Shown here: positions 975 to 52,219 of the stretch, one piece after another | Numbering within the stretch: position 1 is the first letter of the stretch | Layout: the number at the start of each line of letters is the position of its first letter | Assembly: GCA_012295275.1 (NCBI GenBank) | Contig: CM022666.1 | Location: forward strand, 200,001-264,000 | Direction: 5' to 3' | Length of the DNA: 64,000 nucleotides | From: Chrysomallon squamiferum | Taxonomy: Eukaryota > Mollusca > Gastropoda > Neomphalida > Peltospiridae | Program-made: the position numbers and the translations under genes | The notes under the pieces: model-generated | The model's database searches: none | What the model saw: the letters and a program-made list of their open reading frames with translations, nothing else | Told to the model about the DNA's origin: nothing

Positions 975-1010
975 ATATATAAGTAAATATTTATTTGTTT
1001 ATCTTTTCAG

Positions 1011-2218
1011 ACTGCGAGACAAAGTCGAACAGACGGAGAGGAAGTCGGAGAAGGCGGACAAAAGTCCGTCTTTCTGACAGTCAGCTGAAAAATCTTCTGT
1101 CTGAGTCGGCTGGAAACTTTTCCCTCAGTATGTACAAAGTTTTATCACCCAGCTACAATAATTTTGTATTTTCTCCTATTGGTGTACAGATGGCGCTGTC
1201 GATGGCTTATTTATCAGCACGCGGGTCCACTGCACGTGAACTGCAGACGAGGCTAAACTTTATGAAAATGAAGACACCCAGAAATGTTCACAAAATTTTC
1301 CGTCGTTTAACCGATTCTTTGAGGTACGACGTGGGCAACGTGACTGTGAATGTTGTGAATGCAATGTACGTACACAGACCTGTCAGTCTGCGAAACAGAT
1401 TCGTTCGAAAGATGAGACGGTTTTACAAAGCACGAGTTAAGACGTTCGATTTCACACCGACTTCGGGTCCCGTGGCGAGCATAAACAAATGGGTTAAGAA
1501 AAAATCGAGAAGAAAAATAAAAGATTTTTTTTCACCGGACTCAATTTCTCCTCAAAGTTTGTTGGTTCTCATAAACGCGGTATATTTCCGAGGCGAATGG
1601 AAACAGCCGTTTGACGAAAACTCTACTTCTAAGGCTTTGTTTAAGTCAAGTCCGTCAGAGAGCATTTATACGGATATGATGGAAACTGAAGGGGACTTCA
1701 AGTCTAAACATATCTCGGCGCTGGCTTGTAAATCACTGGAGTTGCCGTATGCTGGGGGGAGATTTAGTCTGTTTATCCTTCTGCCGGATGCGAGTGGTTC
1801 TCTTGCCGATTTGGAAGAAAATTTAACAATAAACAAACTGGAAGAACTTCTAAACATCACCAATCAGCCAACCAGAATGCGAATTAGGTTACCGAAATTA
1901 AAACTCGAAATACCTATCCAGCTTAGAAGTGAAATACAGAAAATAGGCGTTGAAGAAATATTCAAAGCGAAAGCAGCCGAACTAACGGGAATTAACGGAA
2001 AACGACGAAGTCTCCATGTTGATTATGTAGCTCATAAATCATGTATAGAAATAGACGAAAGGGGAACGAACGGACAAAGTAGTTGGAAACCGTCGCTAAG
2101 ACTTTCACCCACAAATTCACCTTTATTTCACATAGATCGTCCATTTTTGTTTTTTGTGAGAGACAAAGAGTTTGCTATAAACTTGTTGATGGGAAAGTTC
2201 GTTCAGCCTTCTGGCTAA
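1011..2218 (+). CDS. Serpin family protein, 3' coding exon with complete serpin core
   Basis: Serpins are usually suicide inhibitors of serine or cysteine proteases. The exon carries a whole serpin fold of about 375 residues: the helix-B signature FSPIGVQMALSMAYLSARG, strand s3A NAVYFRGEWKQPF, the LELPYAGGRFSLFILLP segment, and the C-terminal block DRPFLFFVRD followed by LLMGKFVQPSG and a stop. A strongly basic N-terminal stretch (RRRGSRRRR) precedes the core and could be heparin-binding or a nuclear signal. The exon opens after a clear 3' splice site at 1008-1010 and is read in phase 1 (one base of the first codon comes from an upstream exon outside the visible part). A start at the ATG at 995 is possible only if that intron is not used. 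The hinge of the reactive loop (ERGTNGQSS) departs from the inhibitory GTEAAAAT pattern, so inhibition is doubtful. Confidence 0.9.
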
Positions 2219-3152: not shown

Positions 3153-4006
3153 ACGATTAAAAAATTATTCAATTTCTATAAAGTAAAACAAACTGAATGG
3201 ATTCGAAATAATCTTGATCAGTAATGTGTATGTCTGTTTTATGTACATGTACATATGTTTGAATGTATGTATATATTCATCGTGCATGTAAAATAGAAAG
3301 AAAGTAGTTTGAAAACAATGTAATTTATTTACAAACTTTTACATTAATTTAATCAATGTAACTGAAGTGGTATATTACTGTATTAACAATGAAAATTATA
3401 AAAGTTTCAAAACCAGGAACATGGTAAGTTTGTCACATTTTTTGTTTGTTTTTTTAAAAAAAAAACACACAAAAAAACCAACATAACAAAACAAACTTGA
3501 AAGAAACATTTGAACTGTGCAGCACGCAGAATAAAAGAAAAAGATATAAAAAATAAAGAAATAGCGTAATTTTATTGACTTTGAGCCAACTCAGTGTTAA
3601 TTCTCTGTTTATTTTTCTTGTCCTAGTGGAAATGAAAAAGTTCTTCAAGTCATCAAGTTAAAACTGATTATAAAAAACATTTCATCTACTTGTTATATTA
3701 TCTTCATTATCATCTAGAACGTACACAGATAATAACACCAATTCAGATAAAATTTCTTTAAAAAAGTAGTTTCACCAAAATACAGTGAAGTAGGCCTAAA
3801 AAGGTGTTTAGTTTTTTGCATTGCTCGTGAAAGTAATATAATTATTTTTAATTTATCTTCGTGTGTTCTGTCGTCTAAAGAATGTAAGCCTACATGAAGA
3901 ACAAAACGAAGAATGACAGTTCGATATTTGGCTTATTCAAATGAAGACTGATGTAAACTTTTTATTAGATTTCCATGACGATGATTTCTTGGTATCCGTG
4001 GATCCA

Positions 4007-4243
4007 TTTCACTAGATATCATTCGGTTTAACAAGAATAAACAGTCCATCTCGTACTTCAGTGTCCGTTTCATTAGATATCATTCGGTTTAATCAGAGTA
4101 AACAGTCCATCTTGTACTTCAGTGTCCGTTTCACTAGATATCATTCGGTTTAATCAGAGTAAACAGTCCGTCTTGTACTTCAGTGTCCGTTTCACTAGAT
4201 ATCATTCGGTTTAATAAGAGTAAACACTTCAGTGTCCGTTTCA
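4007..4243. repeat. 61 bp tandem repeat, about four copies
   Basis: Units start at 4007, 4068, 4129 and 4190 with exact 61 bp spacing and few differences. Each contains TTTCACTAGATATCATTCGG and TACTTCAGTGTCCG. The last copy is shortened to about 54 bp. Confidence 0.95.
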
Positions 4244-4726
4244 GGAATTCTGCTTTGTTTGTGTTTTGTCACAAAACGAGCACAACATCATGAAATTCTT
4301 ATATTGAATACATGTCACATGTCACAGGTTCTAATCTGCAAAATCTGTCGACGAAATATTCTTTCATAATGTACCCTTTTTCTATTATATGAAGACTTAT
4401 ATTTATATTTTTAATACAATCGTAAGCGAAAAATTCAGACTGCTTTCATAATGCAACCTTTTTCAGTTATATGAAGGTGTATATAGTTAGAAAAAGCTTG
4501 AATATCGATTCGTACACAATGCATCCTTTTCCTGTCATACCAGTGTGTGACTCTATAGTTGTAGTTACAATCGAAATAATCTGAATGCTACTATTTTAAA
4601 TGACAATGTTTTCTGCCATTTGCATATTTTAAGCAATATCTATAATACAGTAACTGACAGTAAAGTTAATTTCAAGCTACTGTCTCAAACATAATATGGC
4701 TCTCTAAAATTTTCAAGGTTTTCAGG

Positions 4727-4730
<4 letters not shown>

Positions 4731-4811
<81 letters not shown>
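4731..4811. repeat. (CT)n microsatellite
   Basis: About 40 CT units. Confidence 0.95.
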
Positions 4812-4819
<8 letters not shown>

Positions 4820-5076
4820 AAATGACAAGTTAAAATGTTTATTTTTGAAAAATTAATGTTAAGGAACAAAACGACAGTCCTCTGTTCTGTTGGGCTCATT
4901 CAGTTCTGGGACTGGCTTCTTGTCATCAGTACATGAGCGGTAAACTGATATCTGTCACAGAAAACATCAAAACAAAAATTAGAAAACTGTGCTTAACAGT
5001 ATTGTCTATTACACAGTACAGTGTTATAAAGTTATTATTATTGCTCTGTAATGTTAGTAAGTAACTAATTGGAGCT

Positions 5077-5115
<39 letters not shown>

Positions 5116-5159
5116 GACAGTTATAAAGAAAAAATTAATCAGATTTCTAAAGAATGCAC

Positions 5160-5187
<28 letters not shown>
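5160..5187. repeat. Poly-A tract
   Basis: Run of 28 A on the plus strand, downstream of the end of gene A. Confidence 0.9.
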
Positions 5188-5190
<3 letters not shown>

Positions 5191-5307
5191 AATAAGTAAA
5201 AAGAACAAAGAAAAGAACAAAACAAATACTGAATAGGTGTCTGTTTGTGTGTCACGTGTACAATAAAATTATCAGTTATTATTATCACTAGTTTTGAGCA
5301 GTTAATA

Positions 5308-5372
5308 TCAGAAAATGTTAGTGAACCAGAGATTACACTGGAACCTAACATCAACAACCTCTTCATTAGAAC
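5308..5372 (-). CDS. Gene A terminal exon, coding part
   Basis: The acceptor TTCAG at 5373-5377 (read on minus) is followed by an open frame of 21 residues (SSNEEVVDVRFQCNLWFTNI, then F) and a TGA. Its phase fits the leftover base from the preceding micro-exon. This is the least certain exon because only the acceptor, frame and position support it. Confidence 0.5.
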
Positions 5373-6381
5373 CTGAAGTCATTTATTATGGTGCTAATTT
5401 AATTTCAATTTTTCGGTGGTTCTCATTTTTTTTATTTTTTTTATTTTTTTATCTACTGCTTTAATCAGATAGTTTTGGATATGGCCCCCTTTTTATGTAC
5501 ATATAAAACAAATGAGAAAAGTACACTTACTATCATCCTCACTGCTTAAAAAAGAAAAAGAAAGAAAGAAAGAAAGAACAAAGAAGCAAACTTAAAAAAC
5601 CATTCAGAAGTATTTTCAAATATAACTGAATCTTTTCTTTGTAATTAATATAATATAATATTCAATTAAAAGATTAGATATTTTATATATATGTCTAAGG
5701 TATTTAAGGTGTGTGTGTGTATAGGAATTAGAAAACCAGGCACATATTTCTTGCTATATGTATTTAATTTATGAACTTATAGCTGGATCTCTTATGAGTG
5801 TCATTTAATTTGGTAGTTAATTTTGTTGTCGTTAATTCGCACTCTGTAACTGGTATTTGTACTCTCAAAAACTACCAATTTATTCTCCTTAATGATTTAT
5901 TAATTTGTTGAATAGTGAATTTATTGTCAGTAATTGTAAATGTATTTTTCATAATTATTTCAAACTTTGAGACATTTCTTAAATCACTGTCACTAATTAT
6001 GAATTAGTAATAGTATTTGCATATGCCTAGAATAACTTCAGAACTGGAGACAACAAAGTAAAAAAAATAATAATAATTCTTCGTTACCAACAATGAGAAG
6101 CTAAAAAACAACAACAAACATTCCAAAAGCATCTAGATAGAAATAAATAAATCCAAATAACAAGGAAATATCTACTTTTCAGTGCAGTTGTTTGTGAAAG
6201 GTCGATTTTATATTGTCTCAATAATTAACATGCAACTTTGTAACTTATACTTGTTATTTATTTTGTTAGGGATAATTCTACAGTTTACACCTGTAATTCT
6301 GATAAATTCAGCAGTCTATGTACAAATACCTCAAATAACTAAATAATTTCTGTCTACATATTACAATAGTTCTTCTTCTTC

Positions 6382-6412
<31 letters not shown>

Positions 6413-7342
6413 TTTATTTTCTTATTTCTTTCTTTTTCTATTTCTTATTATTTTCTTCTTATTATTATTATTACTTTTTTTTAAAGAAAATACTCACTTT
6501 TTGTTATTTGCTTCTACAAAAATAAGAAAAGAAAAATAATATCAATGTACAATAATGACTTCCCTTTATTTTCCAAATAATACCTACCAGTTGTATTTAA
6601 AAATAATGAGTGAATAATAATAAAGGCTATGAACAGCACTGGTATAGTGAAGACAACAAATTGTTTTTACTAATAACATAACAGTAACAATTACCAGTTG
6701 TTCACCTAAAAATAACAGAATAAAAATAAATAAATAAACAAATAAAATTTTTTTTTTTAGAAAAGAGTGTGAGAAGAAAAAAATATAATAAAAAAATAAA
6801 AATAAATAATAAATAAATCAAATAATAATAATGAAGAAGAAAAAGAAGAAGAATTAAAAAAATAAAACAAATCCTGCTGAAATACAGATAACAGTAATTG
6901 TGCACCCACTGCAATGTACACTTACCTTTATCATCTGTAATTCCACTGAAAAAAAACAAAAAAATATATATATTACAAAATCAAAAAGCCTCACCATACA
7001 TGAAAATATCAGTTTGGTTCACTGCGCACTCAAAGTCGCTTACTAATTTCCATATGTCATGTTTATATAGTATCACTAACAGTAATTATAATAATAATAA
7101 TAGTAATAATAATAAATAAATAAAACATCAAACAAATATAAAATATATTTTATAACACACACACTTTATCTAGGTATGTTTGTATCTAATCATGCATTTT
7201 TACCCACACATCCACACTCACATTGGTAACCAGACACTTCTGTCCAGATATTTTAATTATTAAAATATCTAACTGAGTGTACTTACCTTTTTTGATTTAA
7301 TTTTGCTAAAATAAAAACAAAAACAGGAATAATAATTATCTA

Positions 7343-7388
<46 letters not shown>

Positions 7389-9030
7389 TGTGGGTATGTT
7401 TTGCTTATTTTCACCTGATCAGTTTCCTAATAAGACAAAATGGTCCACTAATGATTGCTTTCATTTGTTTTCATAATAAAAACTGCATAACAGTGGTAGC
7501 TACTACAGTTTCCCTATACAGTAATAACAAAGTAAAACTATTGCATGCAGTGCTATGTACATGTGTAATACAACAGAAAAATGTACACTTACCACCGTCT
7601 TGTTCAGTTAGACTGAAAACCAAAGAAATAAGTAAAAAATAAAATAAATAATAATAAAAATAAAAAAAGAATAGGAAAGAAAAAGAAACTAGAAGCAGCT
7701 TAAAAATTATTCATATCTTTTTTACTCACTTTGACATGCACACACATGCATTCACCTCTGTCCTTCACACAAGAGAAAAAAAATTATATGTTAACTAGCA
7801 TGTCAATACAAGATAACATTTTATTAATTTTATAAATTAAAAGGTTCATACATATCACCCGTTTTGATGAAAAAATAGTTAATTTTCTGTTAGTATAAAG
7901 TTGTGAGAGAAAGAGAGAGAAATTAAAATATATACAGAGATTCACTGAATAGTTTCCATCCAAATATTTTAACAATTATTTAAAGCATTTACTTACTGTT
8001 TTTCACTCGATGATGCTAAAACAAGTAAGAAAAAATAAAACAGAAAGAAAAAACAACAAAACAGAACAAACTGGAAGTGAGAAACTGGCTTTAGATTGTC
8101 TTTCTTTCTACATATGTCTGACATAAATTTAGTTTTCGTAATAATAATGATGGCCACAGTTTTGCCAAAGAGAATATTACTCACTGTTTTCAGAAAAAAA
8201 AGTAACAATTATGCTCACCATTTCCTTGCAGTAAACAAGTGTAATACATTAGAGATGTAGACTTACCATCATCTTTTTTGAGGCTAGACAAAATTAACAT
8301 AAATTTATATATTAAATAACACATAATTTTATATATTAAAAGTAACCTATATATTTCTTGTTAGGAAAACTACTGATAATAAAACAATATAAAACAATAT
8401 TCAATGCAGTTTTTGTTTACTTAAATGGTTCAATATTGAAAATACTACTACAAGATTTCTTTAAAAACTGATTTTCTGGTGTTTGTGTCAGCATTTATCA
8501 GTTTTATAAAGTTGTATTAATGAACTAAATTAAAGAAATAAATAATTAATTGATGAATATACTTACTCTGTGTGACTTGTTGCTGTGAAAATAAAGAAAG
8601 AAAGAATAAAACAGAAACAAAAGAGAAAAACTGGAATCCACTAATTCACTTTAAACTATAGCTTTTGTTTTCTGCATACAGCTGACATAAACTTGTTTCA
8701 TTTCCATCCTTTTATTTTTATTTCATTTCTGTTTGCTTTTTGTTTTCCTAATAACAGTGATGACTACTGTTTTCCTAATGAGCATCTTATAGCAATAATG
8801 TTACAACTGTGTAAGTGAGTGTTAATAATAGTGACTACTCACTGTTTTCAGAATAATAAAATAAAAATGTTACCCATTGTTTTGCTAGTAATACCAGTTT
8901 AACAACTAAATAATAATAATGGTGCAATTGTTGCAATGTAGCTCTGTAATTAATTAGAAATGTACACTTACTAAAACCACCTTGTTTATTGAGGCTGAAA
9001 AACAACAAAAAAACCCAATAATAATAATAA

Positions 9031-9061
<31 letters not shown>

Positions 9062-10398
9062 AAGAAAAGAAAAAAAGTAAAAAGAAAAAAACAATAACAA
9101 AGTTATATATACGCATATACTCACACCCATACCAACACACATAAAATCTGTTAACTCAAACACAGTATGTATATCTGAGAATGTTTTAATCAAATACAAA
9201 TTTACATTTTAATCAGCAAGTCAGCATTAGATGTATTAAAATAATTAAAATAATTAAAAGTATACATAACAGACATTTATTTATATTACAAACTTTATTA
9301 CTTGTTGATATTTGCTCAAATTATTTAATAATTAAAATTTATCATTTGGGTAAGCATGCATCTAATTTGTGAGTGTCAGCTGCATATAGCATGACTGATA
9401 GTAATGATGATGATGATGATTATGATGATTATAACAATAACAATAACATATTAATAAAACCATATACTTAAACAACTAAATAATTTCTGTCCAAATATTT
9501 TAGTAGTTATATTAAAGAATATACTTACACCATTTGACTGTCTTCTTCTAAAAAAGGAAGATTTTGTCTTATTGATTCTATTAAAAAAAATCTAACTTTA
9601 TTCCTAACTGAATATGGTTCCTTTATTTGCAAATCTTTGTTTTCCTAAAAAAACATTCTGTATAATAGCAAATATTTTCCTAACAACAATAGTTACAAAC
9701 TGTTTTAACTACAGAGATAAATAAATAATGCCTACCTACTGTTTTTCAAATAAGAAAGAAATAAAACAATACATTGGCTACCAGTTGTTTTCCTAATATG
9801 ACTGCTGTAACAACCATTTCACTAACAACAGCAGTGTAACAGCAATGGCTTCTAATGGGTTTACTAATAAAAATAGTGTAGTAACAAAATAGCAGTAATC
9901 ATGCACCCCATGCAATGAACATATGAAAATAATCTACACTTACCCTCTTTACTGAAAAATAAGAGAAATTATGTATATTAAAACATGTTCATATATATTT
10001 TACTTATTCTATATTATGCTAGCATGTATATTTGTTGATCTATTAGTTTCAGTATATATGTATGTATATATGTTACAACTAATCATTGTGTCATCAGTCA
10101 CTGTATTGTCTAACAAGTAGTGCTGGTTTTAGCAGTAATAGTATTAGTATTGACACAAGTAATAGTGGCAACAATATAGTAATAATAAATGAATAAATAA
10201 TAAAACAAACAAACAATACAAAATAAATAAATAAATAAATTAATTAATTAAAAATTAAAGATAAACATTATAATGATTGAATAATACCTAATAAACAGCT
10301 GTTAGTTGTGTCCAGATATTTTACTAATTAACATGAAGAATATACTTACTTTTTTTGGCTTTCCTTTTCTAAAATAATAATAATAATAAAAAAAAAAA

Positions 10399-10443
<45 letters not shown>

Positions 10444-10843
10444 TATTATTATTATTATTATTAAAAATAAAATATATTTAGCACATTTAATAACAATAAA
10501 ATTAATTTATAATATAAAAGGAAACTGTTATATTAATTTTTATAATGAGGTCATTTATATCAAAGATATGTTAATGGTTAATAAAAATGAAATACATAAA
10601 TAAATAATGATTATTTGGAACCCATACAAAATTATCGATCTACCTACCTACCTATCTATCTATACATCTATCCGTTTATCTATGTATTTGTCTACCTATC
10701 TATCTGTGTGAAGGAATACAATTGTTTTTGTTTTTTTTTTCTCTAATTGTGGACTCAGTCTGTCAGGTATTTTTGTCTTTTTAAACACACGACATTAAAA
10801 CAGGAGCAAAAAGTTTGGATGAGTAACACGAAAATGTCTAATC

Positions 10844-10931
<88 letters not shown>

Positions 10932-11687
10932 AACCCACAGAGAGAAAGAGAGAGAGAGAGATTTTTGATTTGTTTTCTCTTTCAGGGGTGTTTGTTTAGA
11001 GAGGTTGATGAATTAATTACCTTTGGCAGCTTTAGATCTTCTGTAAAACATGGCAGCAGAAATTACAACAACAGCTATTAAAACGGGGATAATTAATGTT
11101 GAAAATGAAATTTTGGTACCTAGAAAAACAAAAATATTAATAATAAAATAAAATTCAGTGTATTAAATTAAAAATAAATAAATAAATATTAAATAAATAA
11201 ATAAATAGTAAAAAAAAATTATAATAAAAAAGAAGGATAATAATAATAAATATAATAGCAAACAATCAAACAAACAACTAAAACAACAGCAATAATAAAT
11301 TTGAAATAAATTTAAAGTTAACATATGCTTTAATTATAAATTTACTGAATGAAAAAACAACACAGGAAAACCAAAAGCAAATGAAATGAAAGTGTTCACT
11401 ATAATACTAGGTCCAAATGAATGAAAAAAAATAAATAAATAAATAAATAAATATATAAATTGAAAAAAAAGAAGTAAAAATAATAAATTACCACTATTTA
11501 GAGTAAAAGATCATTAATATAATAAAAAAAAAAAAAAAAAAAGTATTTATAACTAAGAAGGAAATAAATAGGGAAAGCCGATTTATAGACTTGACATAAA
11601 TAATAAAAATAGTAATTAAGAAAAAAGAAGAAAAAATCCCAAACGCAGTACTGACTACACAATGACACTACAAAATAGAAACAACAA

Positions 11688-11718
<31 letters not shown>

Positions 11719-11726
11719 GCTACTAC

Positions 11727-11779
<53 letters not shown>

Positions 11780-12519
11780 TTTTGGTAAAACGAAATACCT
11801 GGCGATTCAGAGTGTGGTTTTAACGAAGGCGCTGTAAATTAAAGAAAAAGGTAAAACATGAAAAAATTGTTTTGATCATACTCTGTTTATTCATATTATT
11901 CAAGCTTTTTGCACTTCATGTTATTTATTCGCAGTGGACTATACAAACAAACCCACATAATAAGCAGCAGAAGTTGCAATTGGAAAAAAACCCACACAAA
12001 CCCCTGTCCCCTCTAAAACCAACGTGAAATGATTCAAGTAAATTAATATACATAAAAGTAAAGGGTAAAATATGGAAAGATTTATAATTTCAGCAGTTTA
12101 TTTTCTTATACAAATATGTCAATAAGTTTTGATAGGTTTTTGACATACAATATTTCAGAGCCAGTTTATATTAATAAAATGAAAATACACTCTGAAAGCA
12201 GATTTAACTACATACAAGTTTCAAGTAAGTTTTCAAAATACTATTTCTGTGAAAAACGAAAGGAAAAGAAAGACAGACAGAAAGAAAAAACGATACTAAA
12301 TAAACAAAATAGAGTAAAATGACGCTTTCAAAGTTTCCGTTAGTGTTTTTCCTAGAGTGGTGACATCTGGTGTTCATAGACACAACTCGTAAATACAGAA
12401 CACATTACTCAGTCACGAAAGAATTAGACTTTTTAAAGCAAGAATTAGTTCCCTATGTAAACTAGTATTTGAAATAATTTTAAGAAATAGTATAAATGAC
12501 CGTTATTTATTTATTTTTA

Positions 12520-12599
<80 letters not shown>

Positions 12600-12709
12600 T
12601 TATTATCAAACGCACTTATTAAATAATATATATTGTTTCCTCACCATCTTTGAAAAATATGGCATTTAAAACTGAATATATAAAAAAGTGAATGCAACCA
12701 AAATGAAAT

Positions 12710-12740
<31 letters not shown>

Positions 12741-13343
12741 CATATATATTTACATATATAATGACACCTTGCATATTAAACTTCTGTGAACATAATTACG
12801 TGAAAGGACATTTAAACATAATAAACTCGTATTTACTTACACATAACATCCACCGTCTGAACAGCCTGAGCTAAAGACTTTTGGCCATTACTGTTAATGT
12901 AACTGACTTTACATTTATATAGTCCTGTGTCAGAGATTCTGATCTTTGTAAATGCCACTTGAAGAAAAGATTTTCTTTTGAACCTGTTCTCGATCTTTCC
13001 CACTGCTTTTGCTCTTAACGCTAAAGAAGGTTCCACCAGATAACCTTCACCTTTGTTTTTTAACGAATGCGCTTGAGCTATAGTACGATCTTCATCTCTG
13101 CTATTAAGGTTTCTTGTTATCGATAAATAATTTAGTATTTCAATATTTTTGGCATCAATGATAGTACAATTAATTTCCGTCGGCAATCCGTTTAAAATAT
13201 AAAAGGGCATTATTGAGATAAATGCTATGTCTCCTGTAAGTATACAAGTATGCATTCTAAAGTTAGTACTTGTAAAATTAAATAATTTGTTATAACAATT
13301 CGATTTTTTTTCTCTATCTGCAGTGATGATTTCACATCATCAT

Positions 13344-13406
<63 letters not shown>

Positions 13407-14460
13407 ACGTAATACTACTAACTGTATATAACAACAATAATAAAAATAATAATAATAATTATAATAATTACAATAATTATAATATACGTAATACTACTAT
13501 TACTGATACTGATGATGGTGATGATGATGATGATGATGATCACGATAATGATGATAATATAATAATAATGAAAATATTAATAATAATACACGTAATACTA
13601 TTACTAGTATATAACAACAACAACAATAATAATAATTATAATAATTATAATATACGTTTTACTACTACTACTGATACTTATAATAATAATGATGATGACG
13701 ATGATGATGATAATATAATAATAATGAAAATAATAATAATAATAATGAAGACAATAACAAAACATAAATTTATAAAATTATATTCTTAAATAATTCAAAT
13801 AGTCACAGAAGAATAAAAATATAAAAATATATAACATACAGACCTACAGTCAAAGGCTCAGCACTTGGAAGAGCTGGAAATGAAAGAAAACATGACAAGT
13901 TATACTGGCATTAACCGTGCCTGACTACTACAATATGAACACAGTGTTGTCCAGTCACTACACTTTAGATAGCACTGGCAACCGATTATACTGTAGTAAG
14001 ACTTCCAGGTATCAGTAATCATTACGTACAAGCTCCGACCACCAGGTTAATCCCACTGGTTAGGAAAAACAGACTCTTTCTCTGTCTAACTCTACAGCAC
14101 GATCTTTGTGAAGCAGAGTCACTGACATATTTTTCTAATCATTTTATCAGGAATATCTTAGAATGCAGATCGATATATTAGTATTTATAAAAAATAAAAA
14201 AATAAAAACTTTTCAAAATACAAAAATGAAATGTTTACAATAAATATAATAATATTTAAACCAGTATTTCCATAAAATGAGAACCCTCTGAAAACATAAT
14301 AAATAAAATATGTATAATTAATGTGAAAATATATAAAAGGGACAGGATAAGTAATTTAGAAAATTAAACAGTAGATACAAAACATATAAACACAAAGAAT
14401 GATAATAAATAAATAAATAAATAAATACATAAATAACAGTAATAATTTATTAATACTTCC

Positions 14461-14511
<51 letters not shown>

Positions 14512-15751
14512 TACTGCATGAATAAATGACAAAATAAAATTCTTTAAACTTCCAAGTTTTTATTCATTTTTTTCGCTGTTAACAAAGTGTGTAATTTTTA
14601 GTGTTTTATTAAACTTACGCTGAATAATCAGGTCTGCAGACGATACAGAATCTACAACTTTCCCGTTTGAATCGCTGTAATTGATTTGACATGTGTATTG
14701 TCCCGAGTCAGAGATCATCACCTCTGACAGCTGAACCTCGACAACAGACTTTGCTTTGTCTTTGTTGTCACACTTCCCCGTCACTGATGAAATCGATGCC
14801 ATCTGTGTGTCCACGCGGATGACGTTGTCACTGCCGTTACAAGGAGCAGCGAGAGCGAGAGTAGTTTCTGTATCGTCACTGATACCTGTTCTCTTCAGTT
14901 TCATTCCGATCAGCGTGTGGATGTCACTGTTCTCGCCAGTCCTGCATCTCACCATCACAATCATTCTCTCGTACACAGGCTGAGGAGGCATCGTAAGCTT
15001 TGCTGTTTCCAAAACAACTAAACAAATACATTAAAAATACAATCTTCCATTTGTTTATTTCGTAGGTATAAAATTCAATACTTTTTTTGTTATTTCAGAA
15101 TGTATTACTGCATGAACTGAAAGAGTACATCGCTGATAAAAAAAACAATAAATAACAACTTTGATTTATTTATTAGAAACGTAAAAAGCGTAACAAAAAT
15201 AAACAGACGTACCGAGAGCTTTAGACTGTTCTCTTACACCAGCTGTAAATAAATGAAAACACAAATCTCTACAGCTAGAGTGATCAGTAATGACTAAATA
15301 ATGTATTTTCTGTATTTACCAGATATTGGTATGTATTAACATATTACGTTTAATGTGATACGAACTTATCTCTGACCACTGATTATCTTCTTAGGAAAGC
15401 GTACAACAGGACATTTTATCAATAATTTCTTAAAGTCGTAAGCATTTTCTCTTATTTGTCTTCGGAATATATGTCATAGAATTATACTTTTATCTGACTT
15501 GCATAAATATGATTTGAAAGCAAAATATTTATCAGATTAAATAACTGTTATCATTTCACACATGCGCACACAAAGGAAACATTATAATGAATTTCTATTT
15601 ATTTAGCGTGAAATATTTGCTGCATCTATAAACACGTAGAATGAATAATAACAGATCAACCACTAAGCTTTAGTTCCCTGCTTTATTATTTCACTTTTTT
15701 TAAATGTTCTTTTTTATTTTTATCTTTCCTTTGTTTTTCTACCTTTATCTT

Positions 15752-15806
<55 letters not shown>

Positions 15807-18800
15807 TTTTAATTTATTTATTTCTTATTGAAAAATGCTAATTCAATCTTTAACCAGTTTTGTTGCTGGTCGTGTTTTCTTTCACGAATTTTGTTACTGA
15901 AAATCTACAGTACATACAAATTTAAATAACTACAAAATCAAATATCTCGTTTTTATATTTATTTAACCTTTCTGAAACATTTTGTAACAACTGAACTAAG
16001 ACATAGGTATCATTTTTTGTCTGTTATGTTTTCGATTGTGATATATTTTAACGGGCGCTGACTTCATGGACTGTCTATAAATGTTATTACTTACGGTTAA
16101 CAATCAGTTTTGCTGTAGCGTTTGCCTCTTCATTAAGGTCGTTGATACCATAATAACTAATACAACACATGTATTCTCCTGAATCAGCAGCAGAAACTTC
16201 CTTTAGCACAATCCTCACAAACGACGCTTTCTTGTAACGCTCAGCAATCATTCCGGTCACTATTGCTCTGCCTGTCAAGTTCTTCTCTTCCAGGTAGCCT
16301 ATTCCATTGTTAATTAGCCCGGCAACACTGGCCAGTGTTTTAAACTCTTCGCTGTTTTGAAGCTTTCTCTTTAACGATACAACAAAGATTAAATTGACTG
16401 GCTCGATGTCAGCTGTACTACATTCGATCATCACAGAATTACCGATGTACACAGTCTGTGGTATAATCAGCTTCGCGGCGTCACATACAACTAAACAAAC
16501 AAAAGAAAAAAAGAAAAAAAAGGATATTTACTGAAAATGATCACATTTGGTAAGTACAAGATTAAATACTCTTCTTTATTACAATGCTTTATGGAAGTCT
16601 ATATATATATATATAATACCTACGCACACATAAAAAAATATGTATGAACAAAAAGTAAAAATATGTAGTGAAACGCAAGTGCGTGTATAGTTCGAATCAG
16701 AAATTATTAAATCACATTCAAATTAAACCAACAAATACATTTCTCTGACAAAAAAAAAAAAAAAAAATAAAAAAAAAAGAATAAAAAAAAAGAATTACAT
16801 AATTATGACATAAAATACAAATATAAAAGTCACATAAAATGTTATTAAAATTAAATAACATACCTTCAATTGTAATCGGTGGTTCTACAAAATCTGTAAG
16901 TTAACGAAAGGAATTAAACAAAAACAGAACAACAAGAAAACAAACAAAGAAACTAACTAAATAAATAACATTAAAATAGAGATATTTCTGACAATATGAT
17001 GACTGGTGATGATGTTATGTAACGACAACAACGAGAAAACTGCTAGAAACTAATAAACAGAAGTTATCGAGATGCGATGCAGTAAAACAAGGTCATTTAT
17101 CTCTGTCTCCGACTGATATATGAATACTGATACCTGAAACAAAAATCCTAAACAATTTTCAACAATAAAGCTAAAACTTCAGTTATAAATAAGCGAAGTA
17201 TTACTTATGAAGAAAACAAACTATAGTATCAGTCTAACCATGAAAAAAACCTTTTTTGACTGAACTGATGTTTAAATTATGAATTTATATTATATAAAAA
17301 TGATACTACAATTAAATGTATCAGAGATAGCTTAGATCTGCGGATTCTCAAGATGTAGAGCCCTTTAACAGCAATATCAGAATACTGGGACACAGTAAAA
17401 GTTATATGTTTATTACGCAAAAATACTTATAACTACAGTTCATAACTACAGTTCATAACTACAGTTCGTACTGCTATCACAACTCAGCGGTTCGACTTTG
17501 ATGGATCGTATTGATGGATCTTATTAATATTTATCATTATGTGATCAAAACTCATTTCTTTTTTCCTTTTGTTTGAAGCCTTTCACATACTCACGTAGTT
17601 TAATTAAATAAATACTATGAGATAACATTTTCATAAATATTTTTAAAATTAAAAAAAAAAAAAAAAAAAAATTAAAAACAAAAGTTTCTTCGCATAATTA
17701 AAGAAGTAATAATAATAATTCTACTACTCATGCTACTAATAATACTACTACTACTAATAATAATGATAATGATGATGATGATGAAAATAATAATAATAAT
17801 AATAAATGGGAACCCCAGAAATTCAAATGTAATTGAGTCCTCGTAAATGTACACTGCAGGTAATGTTTCTGATTAATTCAATAATTAATACGTTCTATTA
17901 ATGAAGTTACTTACTCTTAATTGATATTTTTTTAGAAACTTGATCATTCACGACGTCGCCATTTAAATTCACGTAACTAACAATGCACGTGTATTCGCCT
18001 GAATAACCTTTATGTATTCCTGATAAACTAATCTGCAAAAAAGACTCATTTTTTTTATTACTGTCGCATTTTCCTGTCACTGCTGCCACATAAACTAAAC
18101 TTTTGTCTTTCACTGTCGCTTTACCGTTGTCCTCTTTTGTCGCAATAGAAGCCATAACAGTGGCTTCGTTTTTGTCTGCAAGTTTCCTCTTTATAACCAG
18201 AGAATTGAGTACAACGTCTTCGGCGCCGTGAAGTCTGCAGCTGATGGTGAGAGGAGTCATTTTGTATTGTGGACGTGTAACTATTTCCAACTGCGCTCTT
18301 TGATGTGAAACTAAATAAGTATATTTAAAAATAAAATAAAATTATTAAACAATTTAAAAGCTTTTAACATTTTAACATATTAAAATCCTCTTCTAAAGTT
18401 ATCCTTCCTGGTCATCTGGAATCAATTAGACTTGAAAATACTAACGTACAGAATATTTATCTAAGGAGCAATGCTAAGTTTGTTTAACGTGCTACATATT
18501 TAAATATTTTATAAATATCATTCAAACTGTGTGATAAAAGCAACAATGACTATAGATGACAATGATGAAAAAAAAAAAAAAAAAAAAATGAAGAAAAACT
18601 AACAAAACAACAACAGCAAGAACTCCTGTCACAGGCTGAATATTAAAGTTATGTAGAATTAATTTGATTCTCATATTGCCCGTTAAAGTGATATTAATGT
18701 TTGATTTCGCTGCAGCTTACAAAATTTCATCTTTTAATTTTGCACCTATATCGAATAGTTTAATCATACCAAGGAAGATTTGTATACTTGCTAGTCATGT

Positions 18801-18833
18801 TGTTATGTTGTTATTTTTAATTTTTAATTTTTA

Positions 18834-18866
<33 letters not shown>

Positions 18867-21801
18867 TCACCCTAAATAGAACCTTGATTAGCAGAATTAT
18901 AATTTATTCCTGCTAATGTAATTACGGCTAGCACAACTTCAATAAAATAGAACTGTGATATTTGCTAGAAAATATTTGTAATAAATGCAATATCAGTCTA
19001 AGTTACTAAATCATACATTTTAACCAACAAATACATTTTAATATTGAAAGGACATAAAAGTATAATCAATCTTTTAATATCATCCAGATACAATTATAAA
19101 AAGATACAGACCTTGAATTGAAGTCCGTGGTCTTAAAATACCTGTAAATTAGTCAAAGAAATTACAGTTAAAAATTCAGAATTGTTGCAGCATTTTGTTA
19201 AGAAACAACATTTTATACATTTCGTTATTACTGCTTTTTAGTACCTAAAATATAAACAATTAAAAGTGTGCTTTGAATCCAAATTTATTTTTGCTTATTT
19301 AAAATTAATACTTAATTTGACGTAATTTTTTTTATCTGAATGCAATTACTTCTACACATAATTAAATGACATTTACTTACTCTTAAAAGTAACCAATGTG
19401 GAACTTGTTGAATATATATAAACCTTTTCTTTGTAATACATGTAACAACACGAATATTCTCCTGAATCAGCGCTAGTCATTTGTAACACTTTAAGCTGCA
19501 AATAAGATCCTTTCCTGTCACTGTTGTCAGACTTTCCTACCACCTTGGCTCGAACTGCTAAGTCTTTTTCTTTTAGAAATGCTTTGCCACTGCGCACGAC
19601 TGTATACGCACAGGCCACAAGAGTAAAATTGTCACTGTTGAGCTGTTTTCGCCTTATTAATATACCTAAGAGCATATCTATTTCAGTCTCTCTATTAGCA
19701 GTGCATGTCAGTGTCACTGGAATTCCTTCATAAACAGGATTTGGATTTACAGTCAAGTGTGCTATTTCAATAGCTACAACTAAAAACGTTAATAATAAAT
19801 AACAACAACAACAACAATAATAATAATAATAAAATAATAATGATGATGATGAATATGATGACGGTGATGATGATAATAATAATAATACCAATAAGAAATG
19901 ATTATGATATCAACAACTTAATTACTTTCAAAACAACCATTTTAAATATAAATGAATATATATTACAAACTGGCGTTTTTATAATTTGTTTTTACTTTTA
20001 TTCAAACGAAATATACTTCTAAATGGGGATGCCTAGACACTATGATAGAATAGTATAGGGATAAGATCCTAACATATTAATTTGTGTTCAAGAAATGAGT
20101 TGCATTTCCGGAAACAATGCGCGTATATTTTTATTATGCTTCCGACTGTTTTACGTCAGTTAGCCGATAGGTGGCGCATTTTAGCTTTACACGACCATTT
20201 TCTAAAAAGTAAACAAAATGAGGAAACATTCGGTACACCCAAGAAAATGCGTTGCTCATCTTCCACCAATCAGAATACATTTTACATCAGTGGAAAATTA
20301 GAACCTTAAGCTGTAACATTTTAGTAACTATTTATCAATATTTTGAAAAAAAAAAAAAAAAAACACATTCCTAATTCTATAACGCAGATTCGACAAAATT
20401 CCCTTTTCGGAGGCATCATGTATTGTATCTATTCTGCCGCAAAGCTAGAAAAAAAAAAAAAAAAAGAAGAAGAAGAGAGTAATAATAATAATATAAATAA
20501 ATAAATTTGAGCATCATAACATATTCAATTTTGCTAGTAATTTTTGATAGCAACCGTGTGTATAGTACAGGAATTTTCTCTTAAACATCCTTATTATTTT
20601 TATCATTATTATTAATTTTTAAAAACTTATTGAACTATTAAAAAATATCAAATCACTGTTTTAAATGTTTCAGCATACTGGTTGGTTTGCGTGTTAACTG
20701 GTTCATCGTCTTAACAGTTCGATATCTCCCTGAACAAGTCACGTTCTGTGCCTCTTTACACACAAACACTGTAAGTTATTTTTAAATACAATTCAACTTT
20801 TAAAGAGATTAAAAACAGGTTTTTTATTTGTCTGTTTGTTTTCAAATCATTTCTTATTAGAAATTTTTAGCTTCTAAATTAACGTAGTTTGGTGTTTAAT
20901 TATTGACGTTGTGTGGGCTGGTGTGGACAACTAGATACGCGCAGTTTCCATGTCTTACGACAGTACTGGCTCAAAGGTTCCCAGTTTCCGTTATACTAGT
21001 AACACTGACCTCAAATCTGGACCACTGCTGATAAAATAATATTATGGCTACTCATTTTCGTCGAATTAAAAAAAAAAAAAAAAAAAATCTGGCAAATAAC
21101 GTTCATCAGTGCTATTAATGTACAACAGTGGTAACGAAACATTTATTGATTTAAAAAACATATATATATATAAAACAAGGGATATTATATAAATAATAAT
21201 AATAATAAATAAATAATAATAAAATAAAATAAAATAATGTACATGGCGTTTTAGTGATATTATTCTACGTCATATGCATACATTATTATAAGGATCACGT
21301 GATAGGAAGGGTTCACTGGATTCTGTAGCATCATCAGTGTAAACAAATCGTAAGTTTGATATTATTTTTTTTAATCAGTCGGGAAATAAAAATAACTTTA
21401 TTATCAATTATATTTCGCTTTTTCTCTCTATTTTAATTATATATATATATTTATTGTTGCTTATAAAGTTCGTGTATGTTTCAAAGTCCTAATTGTGGTT
21501 TTCAACACCCTTTGACAATGTTTGTACTTAAACCACTTAATGACAAAAACGAATATTTATAAAATTATTTCTAGAAAATGTATTTTTATTAACATTCACA
21601 TAAATATTATACTTTGAATTGTTTAAATCATTCAAACAAAAAATAAGTCGAGGTATAATTATGGTGCCAGACCATCTGATCTTTTTGTTAGTTTTTGCGA
21701 TAGTGAAATGCATTTAATAATAATTTGAGAAACTGATTTTGCGATAGAAACATACCTGATGGAAAACCAAAATATAGTCCAAGGTAAACCCAGCTGGACA
21801 T
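5308..21801 (-). CDS. Receptor gene A: five-Ig transmembrane protein with micro-exon-encoded tail
   Basis: Whole-gene span on the minus strand; exons are listed separately. The model is a signal-peptide exon (46 nt), five Ig-like exons (399, 396, 396, 399, 393 nt), each followed by a linker exon (30, 30, 30, 30, 33 nt), a 99 nt transmembrane exon, twelve micro-exons (210 nt in total) and a terminal 65 nt coding segment. All junctions are GT-AG and the phases match throughout. The joined coding sequence is 2556 nt, or 851 residues. The predicted product is a type I surface protein with a single helix. Its hydrophilic tail of about 100 residues is rich in Lys, Ser, Asn, Glu and Asp. It is head-to-head with gene B and has the same five-module order as B and C. 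Ligand and function are unknown; a recognition role is inferred from family divergence. Confidence 0.82.
5531..5544 (-). CDS. Gene A micro-exon 12 (14 nt)
   Basis: CAGTGAGGATGATA between a T-rich AAG acceptor and GTAAGTGTAC donor. It encodes NSEDD with the borrowed bases. Use of the internal CAG instead would give 11 nt with the same phase. Second member of pair 6. Confidence 0.6.
6498..6513 (-). CDS. Gene A micro-exon 11 (16 nt)
   Basis: AAGCAAATAACAAAAA between TTTTTGTAG and GTGAGTATTTTC. It contributes EANNK. First member of pair 6; length is 1 mod 3. Confidence 0.65.
6926..6945 (-). CDS. Gene A micro-exon 10 (20 nt)
   Basis: TGGAATTACAGATGATAAAG between TTTTTTTTCAG and GTAAGTGTAC. It contributes SGITDDK. 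Second member of pair 5. Confidence 0.75.
7287..7305 (-). CDS. Gene A micro-exon 9 (19 nt)
   Basis: CAAAATTAAATCAAAAAAG between TTTATTTTAG and GTAAGTACAC. It contributes AKLNQK. First member of pair 5. Confidence 0.75.
7346..7387. repeat. (GT)n microsatellite
   Basis: About 20 GT units inside an intron of gene A. Confidence 0.95.
7593..7612 (-). CDS. Gene A micro-exon 8 (20 nt)
   Basis: TCTAACTGAACAAGACGGTG between TTGGTTTTCAG and GTAAGTGTAC. It contributes HLTEQDG. Second member of pair 4. Confidence 0.75.
7997..8015 (-). CDS. Gene A micro-exon 7 (19 nt)
   Basis: CATCATCGAGTGAAAAACA between CTTGTTTTAG and GTAAGTAAAT. It contributes ASSSEK. First member of pair 4. Confidence 0.75.
8267..8283 (-). 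CDS. Gene A micro-exon 6 (17 nt)
   Basis: CCTCAAAAAAGATGATG between AATTTTGTCTAG and GTAAGTCTAC. It contributes DLKKDD. Second member of pair 3. Confidence 0.75.
8567..8582 (-). CDS. Gene A micro-exon 5 (16 nt)
   Basis: CAACAAGTCACACAGA between TATTTTCACAG and GTAAGTATATTC. It contributes TTSHT. First member of pair 3. Confidence 0.75.
8972..8994 (-). CDS. Gene A micro-exon 4 (23 nt)
   Basis: The 23 nt exon starts CCTCAATAAACAAGG and lies between GTTGTTTTTCAG and GTAAGTGTAC. It contributes VLNKQGGF. It opens like micro-exon 6 (CCTCAA), consistent with duplication. Second member of pair 2. Confidence 0.75.
9529..9547 (-). CDS. Gene A micro-exon 3 (19 nt)
   Basis: AAGAAGACAGTCAAATGGT between CTTCCTTTTTTAG and GTAAGTATATTC. 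It contributes EEDSQM. First member of pair 2. Confidence 0.75.
9944..9951 (-). CDS. Gene A micro-exon 2 (8 nt)
   Basis: TAAAGAGG between CTTATTTTTCAG and GTAAGTGTAG. It contributes NKE. This is an extremely small exon, supported by its flanking signals, its phase and its place in the alternating array. Second member of pair 1. Confidence 0.65.
10350..10368 (-). CDS. Gene A micro-exon 1 (19 nt)
   Basis: AAAAGGAAAGCCAAAAAAA between ATTATTTTAG and GTAAGTATATTC. It contributes EKESQK. First member of pair 1, directly downstream of the transmembrane exon. Confidence 0.75.
10376..10463. repeat. (AAT)n to (ATT)n palindromic microsatellite
   Basis: AAT units switch at about 10442 into ATT units, so the two halves are reverse complements and can fold into a hairpin. 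It lies in the intron between the transmembrane exon and micro-exon 1 of gene A. Confidence 0.9.
10850..10928. repeat. (CT)n microsatellite
   Basis: About 39 CT units (GA on the sense strand of gene A), about 90 bp downstream of its transmembrane exon. Confidence 0.95.
11021..11119 (-). CDS. Gene A transmembrane exon
   Basis: A 99 nt exon in phase 1 at both ends, with acceptor TTTTTCTAG and donor GTAATT. It encodes TKISFSTLIIPVLIAVVVIS, then AAMFYRRSKAAK. The hydrophobic helix of about 20 residues followed by RR and K gives a type I orientation with the basic side in the cytosol. Confidence 0.85.
11690..11779. repeat. (ACT)n followed by (AAT)n microsatellite
   Basis: About ten ACT units followed by about twenty AAT units, just downstream of the linker exon at 11799-11831. 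Confidence 0.9.
12526..12605. repeat. (ATT)n microsatellite
   Basis: About 26 nearly perfect ATT units in an intron of gene A. Confidence 0.9.
12841..13233 (-). CDS. Gene A Ig-like exon 5 (membrane-proximal)
   Basis: A 393 nt phase 1-1 exon. It carries the B-strand Cys in EINCTI and the F-strand motif SDTGLYKCKVSY. The C strand is degenerate (LSITRNL, no Trp), and the extra Cys of the TGKC motif is absent (VGKIEN). A 33 nt linker exon follows at 11799-11831 and encodes PSLKPHSESP. Confidence 0.85.
13350..13404. repeat. (AAT)n microsatellite
   Basis: About 18 AAT units upstream (sense strand) of gene A Ig exon 5. Confidence 0.9.
14468..14511. repeat. (ATT)n microsatellite
   Basis: About 14 ATT units in an intron of gene A. 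Confidence 0.9.
14619..15017 (-). CDS. Gene A Ig-like exon 4
   Basis: A 399 nt phase 1-1 exon starting VVLETAKLTMPPQPVYE. It carries the B-strand Cys in MVRC, C strand IGMKLKRTG, VTGKCDN with the extra Cys, and SDSGQYTCQINYSDSNG. A fourth Cys lies in the C'-D region (APCNGS). A 30 nt linker exon follows at 13844-13873 and encodes LPSAEPLTV. Confidence 0.88.
15751..15808. repeat. (TTTA)n microsatellite
   Basis: About 14 TTTA units in an intron of gene A. Confidence 0.9.
16095..16490 (-). CDS. Gene A Ig-like exon 3
   Basis: A 396 nt phase 1-1 exon. It carries the B-strand Cys in MIEC, C strand VVSLKRKL, and ADSGEYMCCISY with a Cys doublet in strand F. The TGKC Cys is replaced (TGMIAE). A 30 nt linker exon follows at 15213-15242 and encodes GVREQSKAL. 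Confidence 0.88.
17915..18310 (-). CDS. Gene A Ig-like exon 2
   Basis: A 396 nt phase 1-1 exon. It carries the B-strand Cys in TISC, C strand SLVIKRKL, VTGKCDS, and YSGEYTCIVSYVNLNG. Three cysteines in total. A 30 nt linker exon follows at 16864-16893 and encodes FVEPPITIE. Confidence 0.88.
19381..19779 (-). CDS. Gene A Ig-like exon 1 (membrane-distal)
   Basis: A 399 nt phase 1-1 exon starting VVAIEIAHLTVNPNPVYEG. It carries the B-strand Cys in TLTC, C strand GILIRRKQL, VVGKSDN (TGKC Cys missing), and ADSGEYSCCYMYY. A 30 nt linker exon follows at 19112-19141 and encodes ILRPRTSIQ. Confidence 0.88.
21756..21801 (-). CDS. Gene A signal-peptide exon
   Basis: ATG at 21801 opens MSSWVYLGLYFGFPS, plus one base before a GTATGT donor. 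This gives the same phase, length and M-S-x-W pattern as the first exons of genes B and C. The short hydrophobic segment acts as the signal sequence. Confidence 0.75.
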
Positions 21802-23231: not shown

Positions 23232-37174
<13,943 letters not shown>

Positions 37175-37914: not shown

Positions 37915-37928
37915 GTCAGTATCAGTCT
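37915..37928 (+). CDS. Candidate alternative micro-exon of gene B (14 nt)
   Basis: GTCAGTATCAGTCT between TATTTCGCAG and GTAAGTATAT. Its length (2 mod 3) pairs with the 16 nt form of the upstream tail exon to give 30 nt, as in the gene A pairs. It would add TSVSV. The next plausible acceptor (CTCACAG, ending 38135) would close the frame with TGA at once. Not supported by paralog comparison. Confidence 0.4.

Positions 37929-42819: not shown

Positions 42820-52219
<9,400 letters not shown>

Follow-up and report, generated by a model that had tools for sequence, protein, structure and literature searches.

Paired micro-exons predicted to encode the cytoplasmic tail of a five-immunoglobulin-domain receptor in the scaly-foot snail

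Arthropod Dscam is an immunoglobulin (Ig) receptor whose tandemly duplicated ectodomain exons are alternative and chosen one at a time. The chicken BG genes, relatives of B7 and the butyrophilins, form an expanding cluster of Ig V-like transmembrane (TM) receptors whose tail is spread over 13-36 exons, each 21 or 24 nucleotides (nt) long and coding for the heptads of what is presumed to be a coiled coil; the exon number varies among paralogs (PMC4046983). In schistosome micro-exon genes (MEGs), very short exons stand in rows with long introns between them, and most of these exons are multiples of three in length; the genes have grown by duplication and their products are secreted (PMC10526429). 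The locus described here, gene A, belongs to a cluster of Ig-type receptor genes of the scaly-foot snail Chrysomallon squamiferum, whose genome is presented as 15 pseudo-chromosomes and 7 unanchored contigs in PMC7142155. The window, a stretch of 64,000 nt, corresponds to C2:200001-264000 of the 404.6-Mb assembly (22 contigs); other coordinates preceded by C2, C12 or C13 are contig positions. Downstream of its TM exon, gene A carries an array of twelve candidate micro-exons. This array is very probably real coding sequence, forming the tail of a five-Ig transmembrane receptor and grown by tandem duplication of a cassette of two micro-exons.

The micro-exon array of gene A

The minus strand of the gene A region (4000-14000) was read and scanned with a strict rule that asks for a 15-nt stretch with a pyrimidine content of 66% or more, a YAG acceptor, an exon of 5 to 30 nt, and a GTRAGT donor. 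A preliminary description of this DNA had listed twelve micro-exons, and all are present on the minus strand between 10368 and 5531, with the lengths claimed. They can be arranged as six units. Unit 1 comprises m1 (10350-10368, 19 nt, phase 1 to 2) and m2 (9944-9951, 8 nt, phase 2 to 1), followed by m3 (9529-9547, 19 nt) and m4 (8972-8994, 23 nt) in unit 2, m5 (8567-8582, 16 nt) and m6 (8267-8283, 17 nt) in unit 3, m7 (7997-8015, 19 nt) and m8 (7593-7612, 20 nt) in unit 4, m9 (7287-7305, 19 nt) and m10 (6926-6945, 20 nt) in unit 5, and m11 (6498-6513, 16 nt) and m12 (5531-5544, 14 nt) in unit 6. The donor is GTAAGT at eleven micro-exons and GTGAGT at m11, so that 12/12 match GTRAGT. The tandem acceptor AAGCAG makes m12 either 14 or 11 nt long, both forms being 2 mod 3; the strict scan picks the 11-nt form.

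The lengths follow a simple rule. Every odd micro-exon (19, 19, 16, 19, 19 and 16 nt) is 1 mod 3, and every even one (8, 23, 17, 20, 20 and 14 nt) is 2 mod 3; each pair is therefore frame-neutral though no single exon is, the pairs from m1+m2 to m11+m12 measuring 27, 42, 33, 39, 39 and 30 nt. The TM exon exits in phase 1, each odd exon leads from phase 1 to 2 and each even exon from 2 to 1, and the terminal exon takes phase 1. On the evidence of the sequence, the frame can thus tolerate the gain, loss or skipping of a whole unit. There are 233 odd-even orders that obey the phase rule, and 542 of the 4096 possible subsets reach the terminal stop in frame. Intron lengths of gene A follow no odd/even rule.

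Chance is rejected as the origin of the array, by the excess of strict candidates over shuffled sequence and by their density over the cluster background. In the interval 5308-11119, the minus strand carries 12 strict candidates and the plus strand is empty. By comparison, 1000 dinucleotide shuffles of the same interval yield 0.47 on average and never more than 6, and shuffling within blocks of 100 nt yields 0.37 on average and never more than 5. Elsewhere in the window the two strands together contain nine; the tail of gene B accounts for three of these, of which two have one donor in common. The single open frame of 70 codons reported to run from the TM exon through the twelve micro-exons was recovered; stops occur in both remaining frames of the joined sequence, and, given the exons' own base composition, a run of 70 codons would stay open with a probability of about 0.005. 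The earlier argument from the alternation of phases over twelve sites is not supported as it stands: the twelve sites do not count as independent events, because the array would have grown by duplication of a two-exon unit. Stronger evidence is that the lengths of the candidate exons within each parity class differ solely by multiples of three. A dispersed repeat is also an unlikely source: when the array DNA was compared with the whole genome (40 of 1069 candidates scored), the only matches elsewhere fall on its simple-repeat stretches and were judged to be of low complexity from their query positions.

The introns retain a trace of the pairing. In an alignment that left out m11, the letters past several odd exons are alike (GTAAGTATATTC...AAAATATTTGGACAG), and those past even exons are alike in a different way (GTAAGTGTACATTT). 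With local alignment scores over positions +7 to +60 past the exons, the true odd/even split ranks first among 462 bipartitions (2/924 labelings, the split and its mirror), and it does so again over +7 to +110. Together with lengths that move in steps of three, this parity grouping of the intron flanks makes six tandem two-exon copies the best reading of the array. The parity-specific similarity past the donors could reflect splicing enhancers or shared ancestry.

Judged from its exons, gene A is a five-Ig transmembrane receptor of the Ig superfamily. The model, on the minus strand, joins a candidate first coding exon with a putative start (21756-21801), five Ig exons (19779-19381, 18310-17915, 16490-16095, 15017-14619 and 13233-12841, thus spanning 12841-19779), linkers, the TM exon, the twelve micro-exons and a terminal exon into one 858-residue frame of 25 exons that uses every strict micro-exon candidate. 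Single 30-nt linker exons lie between the Ig exons and a 33-nt linker (11831-11799) precedes the TM exon (11021-11119), which encodes a hydrophobic stretch and then RRSKAAK; all Ig, linker and TM exons run from phase 1 to 1. Hydropathy and position identify a single TM exon behind the Ig domains. Pfam assigns an Ig family to 6/7 Ig exons tested at E-values up to 0.1, above the curated cut-off in one (gene B), and finds none in Ig2 of gene A at that threshold. Two cysteines are invariant in an alignment of 15 Ig exons from the window, and an AlphaFold model of the first Ig exon has eight strands, is mostly beta and reaches a mean predicted local distance difference test score (pLDDT) of 92.7. 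In a sequence comparison with the PDB, the best matches cover short segments of Fc receptors and of titin. Comparison of the 858-residue model with a protein collection gave none at E-values up to 0.001 among 7997 scored candidates, a search that is uninformative because the collection was predicted from public genomes and metagenomes; among viral contigs, none was confirmed as a match.

The terminal exon of gene A is probably 4944-4859 (minus strand; IYRSCTDDKKPVPELNEPNRTEDCRFVP) rather than the exon at 5372-5308 proposed at first. The latter is in frame and ends in a stop, but is preceded by only 47% pyrimidine ahead of its AG and has no AATAAA or ATTAAA within 200 nt past the stop, whereas an AATAAA lies 16 nt past the stop of 4944-4859. 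The GC content is 45% in 4944-4859, 37% in the exon proposed earlier and 21% in the intron ahead of 4944-4859.

Arrays, remnants and array-free copies in related genes

The cluster is tandem, with gene A on the minus strand, genes B to I on the plus strand and gene J on the minus strand. Genes B to I have five Ig exons each, except G (four and a short match), and two Ig exons of J were matched. Two members carry long arrays of their own. In gene H, the TM exon (C2:322944-323072) is followed by micro-exons of 16, 17, 16, 20, 16, 20, 16 and 20 nt and by a terminal exon (328487-328521); in gene J, the TM exon (356064-355942) is followed by micro-exons of 13, 20, 19, 20, 19, 20, 19 and 20 nt and by a terminal exon (351406-351345). 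Joined to their own TM and terminal exons, both chains are open to a stop, with phases as in gene A. The H chain uses six of ten strict entries and two members from a relaxed scan (323516 and 324661), leaving out 324422 (13 nt), the 29-nt form at 324341, 325026 (16 nt) and 327386 (20 nt). The J chain uses eight of nine, leaving out 352012 (19 nt); gene A uses all twelve. The donors of gene J also separate by parity, GTGAGT at 5/5 odd and GTAAGT at 4/4 even entries (Fisher p 0.008).

Over both strands of 304 kb, 78 strict candidates were found, of which the tail intervals of A, H and J hold 12, 10 and 9, with none on the opposite strand of these intervals. Their density is 1.92, 1.79 and 1.91 per kb in A, H and J, respectively, vs 0.08 elsewhere (47 candidates). 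None of the 31 candidates in the three intervals has a length divisible by three, as compared to 17 of the 47 elsewhere (Fisher p 5e-5), a value that serves only as a guide since the H and J intervals, like that of gene M below, were drawn after the candidates had been seen, and since the background includes repeat copies.

Gene M is located about 15 Mb away, at 15.10 Mb of C2. Its TM-like exon is followed by candidates of 25, 23, 19, 20, 16 and, further on, 16, 5, 16 and 5 nt; they are again 1 and 2 mod 3, with two 5-nt candidate exons among them, and the first two satisfy a relaxed donor rule only. Under the strict rule there are nine entries, all 1 or 2 mod 3 and some with a common donor, against one on the other strand. 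The array was read in part, up to C2:15113000, as a partial chain in which one odd exon is unpaired.

The remaining cluster members have far smaller sets. Gene B has a candidate micro-exon of 16 nt (37155-37170, plus strand, GCGATGGTGAGACGAC, phase 1 to 2), of which gene F holds a copy with an intact donor (C2:294076), its single candidate, and a candidate second one of 14 nt (37915-37928, plus strand, phase 2 to 1). The gene C copy of the first (52200-52215, plus strand) has lost its donor by a change from GT to AT. The two candidates of gene G, one odd and one even, stand in reversed order. The number of units ranges from six in A to at most one in B and none intact in C and D. It appears that units multiplied independently in the relatives and that some of them were lost.

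Some further features of the region were recorded. The TM exons of genes B (33309-33463) and C (51323-51479) continue to a common short stop, a possible short-tail form by intron retention. The gene B intron between TM exon and first micro-exon contains a tandem repeat of about 3 kb (window 34000-37080) with a unit of about 43 bp (..GTCATCTATTTATTATACACTAGTCTTCATGATGCAGTG..). A 12-nt sequence that mimics a micro-exon (TTTTATTATGTTTTGCAGTTTGGCCAGTAGGTAAGTGAA and close variants) occurs at window 23269 and 56577 and at C2:271333, 298897, 310865 and 329286, and is probably a dispersed repeat. At C2:398577-398858 (minus strand), six strict candidates share a 10-nt look-alike (TTTTACCGAG between AG and GTRAGT) spaced by about 39 nt or multiples thereof, in a minisatellite-like manner. 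Adjoining the receptor cluster is a serpin open frame of 411 residues (window 983-2218, plus strand; Pfam PF00079, E 8e-96). Beyond the cluster, one Ig query gave 90 exon matches on C2, C12 and C13. Related Ig exons form a second, large cluster at C12:2.26-2.76 Mb, and many of them lie in open frames that are about 160 residues long.

Readings of the array

Several observations weigh against the array being a duplicated, coding two-exon cassette. In gene A, the exon letters alone do not support the parity split significantly (82 of 924), and the acceptor of terminal exon 4944-4859 is weak (53% pyrimidine), while use of the acceptor at 4951, which lies 7 nt upstream, would give a shorter end (DDNISLPLMY). 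Exon identity between units is not clearly above that of the intron just past the donor, except in three odd exons of J (0.79-0.84 vs 0.45-0.55), which makes this comparison inconclusive as a sign of selection. The chains of H and J were picked with the frame in view, so that the open frame of H is weaker than it looks, and the GTGAGT/GTAAGT contrast of J is absent from A and H. Similarity between genes is uneven. Same-parity similarity of the donor flanks is modest between A and J (reached by 29/5000 permutations) and between A and H (80/5000), and absent between H and J (3022 of 5000). For exon letters it is reached by 90/5000 permutations between A and J and by 152/5000 between A and H, and is reversed between H and J (5000/5000 at or above); by permutation, the acceptor flanks show nothing clear across the three genes. 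A single ancestral unit for all genes is not shown, since the H-J similarity is absent or reversed. Broken or missing copies add to these points: the micro-exon of genes B and F has lost its donor in C and D, the odd copy of H at 326625 lacks an acceptor, 325026 and 327386 of H and 352012 of J are unpaired, and J has a degraded copy near 351545. Gene E has no strict candidate, gene I has one strict donor with two acceptor forms and no array, and two distant copies are array-free, with one strict candidate in the 10 kb below C13:17.552 Mb and none at C2:553-563 kb.

If the micro-exons are spliced, as the signals suggest, each unit of gene A would add 9-14 mostly polar residues, and unit number would therefore set the length of a flexible, predicted-disordered tail. 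Skipping whole units would yield receptors differing only in tail length, and skipping one micro-exon would shift the frame. The predicted tails beyond the TM exon comprise 98, 58 and 70 residues in A, H and J, respectively, and all three fall on the disordered side of the charge-hydropathy rule, with low hydropathy. By eye, the units contain no known signalling motif, and the single tyrosine of the gene A tail lies in the terminal exon. It may be speculated, with due caution, that the phase rule acts as a splicing grammar: alternative odd/even joining would then produce a large repertoire of receptors that share one ectodomain and carry graded tails. Such a tail could serve as an adjustable spacer or as a docking strip, in a receptor family that has expanded, may be immune in function, and acquires or drops units separately in each gene.

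The part of the main reading that concerns tail length, but not the exons themselves, is contested by a reading that comes close to being probable, in which the micro-exons are real but constitutive and the array results from neutral unit duplication in an intron-rich gene, without a regulated role for tail length. The uniformly strong donors of gene A (12/12 GTRAGT) agree with constitutive splicing, and unit number varies as widely between genes A, B, C and D as drift would give; the length steps in multiples of three within each class nevertheless need a coding constraint, though not regulation. It is rather improbable that the array is a poison-type device, in which skipping of a single exon breaks the frame and leads to transcript decay, thereby tuning receptor level: in the A, H and J chains, every micro-exon has a length that is not a multiple of three, as such a device would have it, but asymmetric exons follow simply from a two-exon unit. 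Least credible is a reading in which duplicated intron DNA has left splice-like relics and the true tail stops soon past the TM exon, by read-through or a TM-to-terminal join. In its favour, the direct join is also in frame in gene A, the TM exons of genes B and C are open into the following intron as far as a common short end (..SFYLHLFL and ..NFYLHLFL), and some copies are broken; relics would, however, not be expected to keep 12/12 strong donors, frame-class lengths and an open frame.

Comparison with known systems

Gene predictors and aligners often overlook exons as short as 5-20 nt, and tails of this kind may therefore be absent from annotations. The cluster offers a natural series, from no intact unit to six, for studying how the spliceosome handles consecutive micro-exons and what tail length does. 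Among the papers listed by a literature search on micro-exons in molluscs (cephalopods, including octopus, and gastropods), on tandem short exons in Ig receptors and on scaly-foot snail Ig genes, none pointed to anything comparable in a mollusc. The snail genes resemble Dscam in being Ig receptors with tandem duplicated exons, but differ in that these are micro-exons of the tail and can all be joined together.

The preliminary description had drawn a parallel with schistosome MEGs, with which the array has in common its rows of very short exons, the long introns between them and growth by duplication. The parallel fails on the defining features: MEG products are secreted and MEG exons are mostly multiples of three (PMC10526429), whereas in the A, H and J chains no single micro-exon is a multiple of three, only the pair is, and the predicted product is a receptor tail behind a TM exon. 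It had also been stated that no case is established in Ig receptor tails, which the chicken BG genes contradict (PMC4046983). The proposal of a micro-exon array in an Ig receptor tail is thus sustained by the frame continuity along the whole gene and by relatives with the same phase rule, and has to be amended as regards its terminal exon, its novelty and the MEG parallel.

The BG genes (PMC4046983) are the closest counterpart: a clustered, expanding Ig-type receptor family in which numerous tiny exons, lying 3' of the TM exon, make up the tail, a layout read in the snail from sequence. The BG exons of 21 or 24 nt are each symmetric, as opposed to 0/12 divisible by three in gene A, and BG genes have one Ig V-like domain, as compared to five Ig exons in the snail. 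The snail arrays consist of asymmetric exons of 5-25 nt in pairs, with units of 21-48 nt (both extremes from gene M), and their tails are predicted to be disordered; among the units of A, H and J none is 21 or 42 nt long, save one of 42 nt in A, 5/10 in A and J are 39 nt and 3/4 in H are 36 nt. Given these differences in unit, exon size and predicted structure, the snail array would work like a BG tail without being one, and convergence is the likely origin of the resemblance. The comparison suggests that the tiny-exon tails of BG receptors have a mollusc counterpart with a different logic: two micro-exons, each of which would break the frame alone, are duplicated together, and their frame shifts compensate.

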